A stretch of DNA of 64,000 bases from Owenia fusiformis (taxonomy: Eukaryota > Annelida > Polychaeta > Sabellida > Oweniidae). Below the pieces are notes generated by a model that had not been told where the DNA came from, made no database searches, and worked only from the letters and a program-made list of their open reading frames with translations. Position numbers and translations under genes: made by a program. Below are positions 4,801 to 63,849 of the stretch, in pieces; position 1 is the stretch's first letter, and every line of letters begins with the position of its first letter. The stretch is from positions 13,784,150 to 13,848,149 of the forward strand of contig CAIIXF020000002.1 of NCBI GenBank assembly GCA_903813345.2, given 5' to 3'.

Positions 4801-5990
4801 AGCTCACAAGGGTGAGCTATTGTTATCACCCACTTGTCTGTCTGTCTGTCTGTCTGTCTGTCTGTCTGTCTGTCTGTCTGTCTGTCTGTCTGTCTGTCTG
4901 TCTGTCTGTCTGTCTGTCTGTCTGTCTGTCTGTCTGTCTGTCTGTCTGTCTGTCTGTCTGTCTGTCTGTCTGTCTGTCTGTCTGTCTGTCTGTCTGTCTG
5001 TCTGTCTGTCTGTCTGTCTGTCTGTCTGTCTGTCTGTCTGTCTGTCTGTCTGTCTGTCTGTCTGTCTGTCTGTCTGTCTGTCTGTCTGTCTGTCTGTCTG
5101 TCTGTCTGTCTGTCTGTCTGTCTGTCTGTCTGTCTGTCTGTCTGTCTGTCTGTCTGTCTGTCTGTCTGTCTGTCTGTCTGTCTGTCTGTCTGTCTGTCTG
5201 TCTGTCTGTCTGTCTGTCTGTCTGTCTGTCTGTCTGTCTGTCTGTCTGTCTGTCTGTCTGTCTGTCTGTCTGTCTGTCTGTCTGTCTGTCTGTCTGTCTG
5301 TCTGTCTGTCTGTCTGTCTGTCTGTCTGTCTGTCTGTCTGTCTGTCTGTCTGTCTGTCTGTCTGTCTGTCTGTCTGTCTGTCTGTCTGTCTGTCTGTCTG
5401 TCTGTCTGTCTGTCTGTCTGTCTGTCTGTCTGTCTGTCTGTCTGTCTGTCTGTCTGTCTGTCTGTCTGTCTGTCTGTCTGTCTGTCTGTCTGTCTGTCTG
5501 TCTGTCTGTCTGTCTGTCTGTCTGTCTGTCTGTCTGTCTGTCTGTCTGTCTGTCTGTCTGTCTGTCTGTCTGTCTGTCTGTCTGTCTGTCTGTCTGTCTT
5601 GCCAAGACATTGGTTGCTAATTCGAAATCCTCCACGACAATTGGACGATTTCACTTTTAAAATGTGTCTACATAAGATTATCAATTGTTCCATAGGAAGT
5701 GTCTCAAAAGCTCATTTTTGGTCATAACTGGTCATAAGTGTTCCCTCAGTTTGCTTGAAATTATACAGGTATGTTATTTCTACATTATCAACAATGTCTG
5801 CACATTTCAGCAAAATATGTTGTAAAGATTCAAAATGGCCACAAATTTTATTGTAGATAAATTTATAGGTTTTCGATTTTTTTGGTCATAACTGCACAAG
5901 TATTCCATCAATTAGCTTCAAATTGTACAGGTAGCTTCATTTATAGGTTACCAATAGAAACCCTGTGAGCCAAGTACCCACGGTACTATT
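4801..5990 (+). mobile_element. Family C Helentron-like non-autonomous element with giant microsatellite
   Basis: It starts with the 7-bp-stem hairpin AGCTCAC-AAGG-GTGAGCT (4801-4818), followed by a TGTC tetranucleotide array, then a body with repeated GGTCATAACTG motifs. Near the 3' end CCCTGTGAGC (5961-5970) repeats the second arm, followed by a terminal hairpin AGTACC-CAC-GGTACT (5973-5987) and TATTT. The layout matches that described for Helentron/Helitron2 derivatives (subterminal inverted repeat, internal simple repeat, 3' stem-loop). No protein is encoded. Confidence 0.65.
4835..5599 (+). repeat. Perfect (TGTC)n microsatellite, about 191 units
   Basis: A 765-bp uninterrupted tetranucleotide array with no visible substitution. 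Open frames of CLSV or DRQT repeats on both strands are products of the array and not genes. Confidence 0.99.
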
Positions 5991-6152
5991 TCTTTTTTAC
6001 TTTAAAGTTCTTTGCAAAATCAGGTCTCTCTAAAATATCAATTTTTGAAAAAAGCATCAATTTATTTCTCAGACTCGAGTAAAAAAGACTTCAATTCTTC
6101 TCAAGTATCAATGATATTCTGAAAAACAATGTATTTATTTCCTCACTTGCAG

Positions 6153-6271
6153 CACCAGGTATCTATTCACCTTATCACATGATAGATTTTGGAATTGTCC
6201 GCAGCTTGGATGAATCAAAAACCCTATCAGTCTATATCATCAATGGAACTCCTAAAGAACTGAACCTATGG
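6153..6271 (+). CDS. TMEM131: TMEM131 exon (APGIYS / DFG region)
   Basis: The exon is 119 bp between TTGCAG and GTAAGT, entering in phase 1 and leaving in phase 0. With the split codon it begins APGIYSPYHMIDFGIV, matching the family's APGIYS...LDFG start of an ASH/PapD-like domain, and ends NGTPKELNLW. NGT is a possible glycosylation site. Its phase-0 donor is compatible with either the 11932 acceptor or the candidate exon at 6963. Confidence 0.9.
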
Positions 6272-61859: not shown

Positions 61860-62120
61860 ATGTCATGACGGAGTTTGGGTTCCGCTTCTAGAGAAAGAAG
61901 ATATTCCCTCTCGAAATATCGTGTTGACCATTGCTATACACTCCATATTTAATCCTCCCTGTAAATAACATTGATATACAGTATACATATGAGGATCTGG
62001 GGTTTGGGTAATGTGAGACATGAGTTGCTACTTTTTGAATCTCATATTCAATATTCTTTCTTTAAACCCTCATATTTTTAATATTTTTGGAGTGGTAATT
62101 CAATTATTTACCTATTTGTT
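61860..62120. other. Intron, nothing recognised
   Basis: No feature assigned. Confidence 0.35.
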
Positions 62121-63849
62121 ATCCCATTGAACAAATTTCGGAGGGATATAGGGAACGCCTTCGTCCATCCGTCTGTCCGTCCGTCCGTCGGTCCGTCCGT
62201 CCATCCGTCCGGGCAATAACTCAAATACCGTTGGCCCGATTTTGTTCATATTTTGTACACATATACCCTATGGGAGTAGAAGTCCTGCTCGAAAGCCGAT
62301 TTTCAAAATGGCCGCTCATTTCAAAATGGCGGCCATTTTAGTGCTGAATTTACAGTAATTTAGCTGCAATATGTAAAACTGTAATAGCAATATGTTTTAG
62401 ATGTAAAAAAATTATATAGGACATTAATGAAGCTAGAAATGTAGATATTAAAGAAGCACATGGCAGCCATCTTGAAAAATGGCGGCCTTTACTCGTTATT
62501 TTACGATTTTTGCTGTAACTCGAAAAGTAGTAGAGCGATTTTGTTCATATTTATCCCATTGAACAAAGTTCGGAGGGATATAGGGAACGCCTCCGTCCGT
62601 CCGTCTGTCTGTCCATCCATCCGTACGTACGTACGTCCGTCCATCCGTCCGGTCAATAACTCAAATACCCTTGGCCTGATTTTGTTCATATTTTGTACAC
62701 ATATAATCAAAATGGCCGCTCATTTCAAAGTGGCGGCCATTTTAGTGCCGAATTTACAGTCATTTAGGTGCAATATGTAAAATTGTAATAGCAATATGTT
62801 TTAGATGTAAAAAAATTATATAGGACATTAATAAAGCTAGAAATGTAGATATTAAAGAAGCACATGGCAGCCATCTCGAAAAGTAGGGTACGATTTTGTT
62901 CATATTTGGTATGTGAATACTACCAACATTGCACACTGTCTAAAGACACTTGTGGTACAAGGCGGCCATTTTAAAAAATGGCTGCCATTTTGAAAAATGG
63001 CCACCATTTAAACGTATTTTACTATAACTCAAAAAGTAGTGGAGCCATTTTGTTCATATTTGGTATGTGAATACTATAAGCATGACACACTGTCCTATGA
63101 CACTTTTGGTAGAAGGCGGCCATTTTGAAAATTTTTTGAAAAATGGCCGCCATTTTAACGTATTTTACTATAACTCGAAAAGTAGTGAAGCGATTTTGTT
63201 CATGTTTGGTATGTGAATACTATAAGCATGGCACACTGTCTAATGACACTTTTGGTAGAAGGTGGCCATTTTTACTCGAAAAGTAGTGGAGCGATTTTGT
63301 TCATATTTGGTATGTGAATACTAGAAGCATGACACACTGTCCTATGACACTTTTGGTAGAAGGCGGCCATTTTTCAAAATGGCCGCCATTTTAACGTATT
63401 TTACTATAACTCGAAAAGTAGTGAAGCGATTTTGTTCATATTTGGTATGTGAATACTTTAAGCATGGCACACTGTCTAATGACACTTTTGGTAGAAGGCA
63501 GCCATTTTTCAAAATGGCCGCCATTTTAACGTATTTTACTATAACTCGAAAAGTAGTGGAGTGATTTTGTTTATATTTGGTATGTGAATACTATAAGCAC
63601 GGCACACTGTCTAATGGCACTTTTGGTAGAAGGTGGCCATTTTGAAAAAATTTTAACGTATTTTACTAACTTGAAAAGTAGTAGAGCGATTTTGTTCATA
63701 TTTGGTATGTGAATACTATAAGTATGGCACAAGGTCTAATGATACTTTTGGTAGAAGGCAGCCATTTTTGCTATATACTTTATTTGTAAAAATGCCATCC
63801 ATGGCTGTTCGATGGGATTCGCTACGCTTTGGCGTTGCCGTTGTTCTGG
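62121..63849 (+). mobile_element. Family G Helentron-like element with two 5' starts
   Basis: The start ATCCCATTGAACAAAT with second arm GGAGGGATAT is followed by a GTCC microsatellite. A second start, ATCCCATTGAACAAAGTTCG, lies at 62553. About eight ~130-bp units follow, built on GGCCGCCATTTTAACG and GTAGTGAAGCGATTTTGTTC. The end is TGTTCGATGGGAT, hairpin ACGC-TTTG-GCGT and CTGG (63846-63849), then TTA. ATCCCATTGAACA and TGTTCGATGGGAT are 12/13 inverted matches. Confidence 0.78.

Follow-up and report, generated by a model that had tools for sequence, protein, structure and literature searches.

The window analysed here is a 64,000-nt stretch of the Owenia fusiformis genome (498 Mb) on contig CAIIXF020000002.1 (G000:C2:13784150-13848149, where G000 is the source genome, C-numbers are its contigs and L-numbers, here L005-L014, L026, L028 and L031, are further loci). 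It carries repeat elements with eight types of ends, the coordinates and terminal features of which are collected in Table 1.

Table 1. Repeat elements of the window, with positions counted from its first nucleotide
Element	Position	Strand	Terminal features and remarks
Family A HINE, copy 1 (A1)	10122..11255	+	hairpin ATGTCACCAC/GTGGTGACAT; minisatellite; 3′ arm GGTGGTGACAT; end CTTG before T
Family A, copy 2 (A2)	15192..15744	+	both ends; also recovered by blind scan
Family A, copy 3 (A3)	29380..30974	+	both ends; also recovered by blind scan
Family A, copy 4 (A4)	47316..48069	+	5′ end only; 3′ end missing
Family B	25326..26311	+	hairpin GGCTCAC/GTGAGCC; CCGT microsatellite; 3′ arm GTGTGAGC; hairpin AGGACC/GGTCCT; end CTAT before T
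Family C	4799..5989	+	hairpin AGCTCAC/GTGAGCT; TGTC microsatellite; 3′ arm TGTGAGC; hairpin AGTACC/GGTACT; end CTAT before T
Family D	17436..18322	+	hairpin ATCGTACCT/AGGTACGAT; 3′ arm AGGTACGAT; end CTTG before T
Family E	31757..32912	+	imperfect hairpin on CCCCAC/GTGGGG; 3′ arm GGTGGGGACA; end CTTG before T
Family G, copy 1 (G1)	55910..56418	+	5′ hairpin TATCCC/GGGATA; 3′ hairpin ACTC/GAGT and CTAG present; 3′ arm lost
Family G, copy 2 (G2)	62119..63849	+	3′ arm ATGGGAT; hairpin ACGC/GCGT; end CTGG before T
G element without 5′ end, nested in H	22505..23620	+	G 3′ end match; borders by eye
Family H	19564..24821	+	hairpin AGGAGGCC/GGCCTCCT; 3′ arm GCGGCCTC; end CTAG before T
Family J, outer copy	38925..42501	+	in one arm of a local inverted repeat
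Family J, inner copy	38982..40895	+	arm AATCTGGAGTCT; 3′ hairpin AATTGAAC/GTTCAATT; end CTAG before T

The family H element is interrupted by a long inverted-repeat element (placed by eye at 19693-21640) and by a G element, while the inner J copy is nested 57 bp inside the outer one in equal orientation, and the other arm of the local inverted repeat (35175-35403) constitutes an empty site for the outer copy. G2 contains a second G 5′ end near 62552, A4 carries an insert at ~47436-47965 (by eye), and the TGTC microsatellite of the family C element is ~0.8 kb long. Outside the window, a second both-ended copy of family B was found at L011 4852-5533 and a further copy of family D at L008 4925-8102. 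Repeats of other kinds also occur in the window, namely a Ty3-like reverse transcriptase/RNase H frame with an integrase C-terminal match (975-2870) and, on the minus strand, an RT-encoding sequence (50030-54260) bordered on both sides by copies of a long direct repeat (~50030-50690 and 53585-54260, by eye). Elsewhere on the same contig, thirteen places with one and the same YADD-motif string, all on the plus strand, span ~364 kb (G000:C2:18591227-18955198) as a repeated segment or array.

The initial annotation had ascribed the same terminal architecture to different families, and this view is largely upheld, since a 5′ hairpin and a 3′ copy of its inner arm are present in A, B, C, D, E, G2, H and J. 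The plan of the eight end types runs from TT(A/G) and the 5′ hairpin, through a subterminal copy of the inner arm located 19-31 nt before the 3′ end, to CT[TAG][GT] and a following T, and in several families a tetranucleotide microsatellite or a minisatellite follows the 5′ hairpin. The arms had been said always to match inside an element, which fails in G1 (55910), where the 3′ arm is missing, and the family A copy at 47318 (A4, 47316) is no example of the full plan, its 3′ end being absent. As in Helitron2/Helentron elements, 8/8 families have at the 5′ terminus a hairpin whose outer arm carries the inverted repeat, and a subterminal 3′ copy of the repeat is present as well (missing in G1). 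Canonical Helitrons (Helitron1) have a 5′-TC start, no 5′ hairpin and insertion between A and T, whereas the ends described here start with TT(A/G) and a hairpin.

The true pairing of the eight left and eight right ends scores 76, a value reached by 1 of 40320 permutations (itself), although this test is partly circular because the ends were picked by their match; the genome counts given below are free of that circularity. The 5′ hairpins fold better than their dinucleotide shuffles, with z values of -8.0 to -2.1, the weakest being G2 with only -1.5. The small 3′ hairpin of the initial annotation survives in part: covarying stems occur in G (ACGC/GCGT in 50 and ACTC/GAGT in 36 of 100 listed 3′ ends) and in B versus C (AGGACC/GGTCCT versus AGTACC/GGTACT), whereas single-sequence folding is weak (z -2.7 to +0.2), with the D hairpin folding no better than shuffles and the H 3′ end adopting a structure other than the proposed one. 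By itself the end plan lacks specificity, because a blind scan of the window gave false, minus-strand and missed matches. Eleven matches were obtained on the plus strand, comprising seven elements with correct start and end (A1, A2, A3, B, D, H and inner J), the outer J start joined to the inner J end, and three false ones; another 11 on the minus strand came from internal palindromes, C, E and G were missed, and each of 20 Markov sequences yielded 0-4 matches.

The ends recur throughout the genome, in keeping with the initial annotation. Six 3′-end patterns representing seven types (all but H) were found at 223 to 2153 sites per strand, with forward and reverse counts of 1122+1142 for A, 2137+2153 for G, 223+224 for B and C counted jointly, 375+409 for E, 1528+1302 for J and 226+249 for D, while the G 5′ end occurred at 2203+2216 places and the palindromic A 5′ hairpin at 2556. 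Reversed-pattern controls over the whole genome gave 0 for A5, A3, G5, G3, B/C3, J3 and D3, and 0 and 1 (reverse) for E3. When viral contigs were screened with one G 3′ pattern and one A 3′ pattern, neither was matched exactly. Places were listed as the first 100 of these larger sets, which for A, G, E and J lie wholly on C1. Family J copies of one strand are arrayed head to tail, in some cases combining different 3′ subtypes, at G000:C1:22591574-22643087, 3414058-3428522 and 19836582-19849903.

The pairing of 5′ and 3′ ends described for the window was recovered in genomic copies of two families. Of 47 family A 3′ ends lying in the first 6.62 Mb of C1, 26 are accompanied within 6 kb by a perfect 5′ hairpin on the correct side and of matching strand (chance 0.023 each), and 9 have one in the wrong position; for family G, a 5′ end lies within 4 kb of 63 of the 100 listed 3′ ends (chance 0.02) and in the wrong position for 11. 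Covariation between the arms, a further expectation, was likewise found in G, where position n1 is complementary in 61 of 63 pairs and takes three states (T-A 40, A-T 14, C-G 7, mismatch 2; best of 5000 shuffles 42), a figure inflated by the shared descent of three subfamilies and reflecting few independent events. At the positions next to n1, complementarity is found in 57, 60 and 60 of the 63 pairs. Because the ten deviating pairs include no compensating change, the arm match is kept between subfamilies, without repair in single copies.

Empty sites for E (L012 and L006), G2 and J reveal insertion just 5′ of a T, with no target duplication. The E element in L012 was compared with an empty L014 (88.8% over 249 bp), that in L006 with the tandem units around it, G2 with L006 6082-6330 (85.8% over 253 bp), and outer J with the other arm of the local inverted repeat (84.8% over 237 bp, the query being 8 bases short at the 3′ border). 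All of these sites fit an element TT(A/G)...CT[TAG][GT] placed before a T. The borders, previously drawn between T and A at the 5′ end and between G and T at the 3′ end, must accordingly be moved so that two T lie inside the element, and insertion between two T residues holds for the target T 3′ of the element, whereas the preceding base is A, T or G. The sites resolved are those of E, G and J; the window's own E element showed ragged junctions with four paralogues.

The Helitron_like_N domain (PF14214) has 58 matches in the genome, 42 of them within open frames of 1416-3377 aa. One match (C10:10910081, in a 2576-aa frame) lies in an element of ~11.6 kb, C10:10905387 to 10916996, with the family A 5′ hairpin on one side and the A 3′ end on the other. 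Comparison with a C6 copy gave 98.3% similarity at the 3′ side, stopping one base past CTTG at a shared flanking T. Close to the C10 3′ end, a segment that keeps the reading frame has an Exo_endo_phos_2 match (E 7.7e-5) falling below the Pfam cut-off. Family A ends are, in short, the boundaries of an element predicted to encode a Rep domain and an endonuclease-like end. The idea that Rep genes would be bounded by the window's end types is therefore realized in family A, whereas the copies on C2, C3 and C515 could be assigned to no end type; the search at C3, covering ~3.2 kb ahead of the first start codon, revealed no end pair. These other autonomous copies have matches to OTU (C2, C3), Exo_endo_phos (C515) and DUF6570 (C6). 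A G-type 3′ end lies downstream of the C515 Rep copy, and an upstream G element was considered as its 5′ end and rejected as a nested insertion because the similarity between C2 and C515 runs on past it. Helentron proteins in L026, L028 and L031 match OTU, Herpes_teg_N-like and DUF6570 domains, Herpes_teg_N (L031) below cut-off. The small contigs C13 and C515 hold six and four Rep matches (frames of 1416-3194 and 2044-3146 aa), which suggests recent or array-like expansion.

Judging from these sequence features, the repeats very probably belong to the non-autonomous Helentrons (HINEs) of the Helitron2 group and depend for their mobility on the Rep-helicase-endonuclease protein encoded by autonomous Helentrons at other genomic sites. 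The Helentron/Helitron2 precedent invoked in the initial annotation proves apt, given co-occurrence (A, G), covariation (G), empty sites (E, G, J) and the autonomous A element; a putative mobilising partner with equal ends was seen for family A and would be expected for the others. During transposition, the Rep domain would nick at the 5′ TT(A/G), the helicase would displace one strand, and the element's end would be marked by the 3′ arm together with the small hairpin that follows. The 3′ arm, as the complement of the 5′ outer arm, could open the 5′ hairpin by pairing and set the end point of replication, a signal proposed by Bao and Jurka (2013, PMC3627910). The strand or circle would then be joined just 5′ of a T, with no target duplication. 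Each autonomous lineage and its dependants would drift together in arm sequence while the arms stay complementary, giving rise to the differing end types.

How far these end types are separate is a related question, as the initial annotation saw at least eight families with mutually divergent ends, suggestive of several parallel lineages of end recognition. Eight end types with differing arms do coexist, but shared 3′ ends and core reduce them to about five groups: A, D and E have a common 3′ tail AGGT...CTTG, B and C have a common GTGAGC and a covarying 3′ hairpin, G comprises at least three subfamilies, and H and J each stand alone. Moreover, TAT directly follows the 5′ hairpin in 8/8 types and TATTG in 5/8 (A, C, D, E, J). 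Because the 3′ tails and TAT core are common to groups, the comparison favours one ancestral, diversified system, the arms of which would have drifted jointly, over eight parallel ones. Eight independent Helentron lineages, every one of them possessing a Rep of its own and having evolved end recognition separately, would account for arm sequences that look unrelated among the five groups and for the several score classes of the 58 Rep matches, yet such a history is rather unlikely in view of the grouping of A/D/E and B/C by 3′ ends, the recurrent TAT and TATTG, and the single Rep-end pairing seen (family A). Far less probable still, and already disfavoured, is that these short, numerous, non-coding elements with short inverted repeats are MITEs of TIR (DDE) transposons mimicking the plan, as their repeat is asymmetric (terminal at 5′, subterminal at 3′), their empty sites lack target duplication, and a Rep-domain gene is bounded by family A ends.

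Much of this system has counterparts in the literature, cited here from the available portions of each paper. Helitron2 elements with asymmetric terminal inverted repeats (PMC3627910) similarly have a 5′ arm that forms a hairpin, a 3′ arm that directly precedes a hairpin and lies 20-30 bp from the 3′ end, and insertion without target duplication, and compensatory changes were described there in one pair of related elements; unlike in that account, covariation here was counted within a single genome, for 63 element pairs in three states, and the arms have other sequences. Helentrons and HINEs (Thomas et al. 2014, PMC4067079) share palindromic subterminal repeats, a 3′ palindrome, microsatellites, TT insertion with element-borne T at the borders, and a Rep-helicase-endonuclease partner, but differ in arm sequences and host. 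In the Pacific oyster, eleven Cg_HINE types, some unrelated in all modules, coexist in one genome (PMC7492417), resembling the present case in the coexistence of several types and in their tetranucleotide microsatellites. Non-canonical Helitrons of Fusarium oxysporum (PMC5148889), for which there is evidence of joined ends, likewise comprise, within a single species complex, subgroups that differ in ATIR sequence, although, as described there, they have no endonuclease domain and two subgroups use a TNAT/T target. The plan, arm pairing and one compensatory case (PMC3627910), TT insertion and partners (PMC4067079), and unrelated HINE types (PMC7492417) are thus already published, as far as the portions available go; the families of the present genome join a known kind as new members, and their coherence of orientation is unexpected.

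This coherence is evident in the window together with L005-L014 (164 kb), where both-ended elements lie 20:0 on the plus strand and all end matches, of eight end types, 43:2, after removal of two J minus matches that were palindrome self-matches (the hairpin read backwards). A TMEM131-like gene seems to run on the plus strand through much of the same stretch; one exon in L009 matches Ig_TMEM131L_5 below cut-off, the others were judged by eye, and two presumed exons in the window had no Pfam match. Target composition was rejected as the cause, with plus-strand values of 0.506-0.52 for T/(A+T) and 0.54-0.56 for TTTT against 43:2.

On C1, cross-family pairs from six families have the same versus different orientation in 86:21 cases at 3-20 kb. 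The separate bins gave 36:5 (3-10 kb), 50:16 (10-20 kb), 49:27 (20-40 kb), 113:67 (40-80 kb), 239:139 (80-160 kb), 330:335 (160-320 kb) and 671:623 (320-640 kb), counts reached by 0, 0, 2, 0, 0, 183 and 29 of 300 strand shuffles, respectively, so that coherence is lost beyond 160 kb. In these data one of 100 listed E places was dropped (A-like tail), J arrays were collapsed by hand to 44 first members, and B/C and D were limited to their C1 rows (57 and 66 of 100 listed). A LINE strand control (YADD motif, 131+105 places) was too sparse, with 16 of 100 listed on C1. Relative to kinase and ankyrin gene motifs on C1, elements lie sense versus opposite in 7:0 cases at distances up to 10 kb (from six loci, with one element entering twice, once for each of two markers), in 4:1 between 10 and 20 kb and in 8:5 between 20 and 50 kb. 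This test used 28 of 32 markers, some of them chance hits given a kinase pattern control of 29 versus 182 places; the four kinase rows dropped as a recurrent repeat-like string included one with an opposite E at 13 kb and another with an opposite B/C and a same-strand J. Among autonomous copies, those on C6 (PKD exon) and C2 (ankyrin exon) are sense to the nearest readable exon, that on C515 is sense to an exon judged by eye, and for C10 a possible splice site is the sole indication of sense. Orientation is shared locally across Helentron families, with a tendency to follow the sense direction of host genes.

It is possible, if still short of an even chance, that this pattern reflects strand-directed placement of unrelated end types, whereby neighbours up to ~160 kb apart come to share orientation, sense to readable host genes; a single-stranded intermediate may join the strand exposed by transcription or by a preferred direction of the replication fork. 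The alternative is that selection against antisense copies makes the bias. Tandem or segmental duplication of composite blocks, with neither insertion nor selection, could be read from the head-to-tail J arrays and from A and G pairs less than 4 kb apart, which are alike in 15 of 15 cases, but it is improbable as a general cause, since unrelated families show the bias at a variety of distances, as do eight end types within one gene region, and since it also appears when elements are compared with gene motifs. Titles and abstracts searched by orientation disclosed no Helitron bias of this kind, and the available portions of PMC2374699 and PMC4778049 report none; the Cg_HINE account (PMC7492417) notes insertion in both orientations and, unlike here, describes no local coherence in the portion available.

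With thousands of copies and several coexisting end types, this genome makes the arm-pairing model testable by covariation at scale. Moreover, should the bias stem from insertion, as strand-directed placement would have it, and not from selection, a eukaryotic rolling-circle transposon would be choosing its target strand, with integration tied to transcription or replication.
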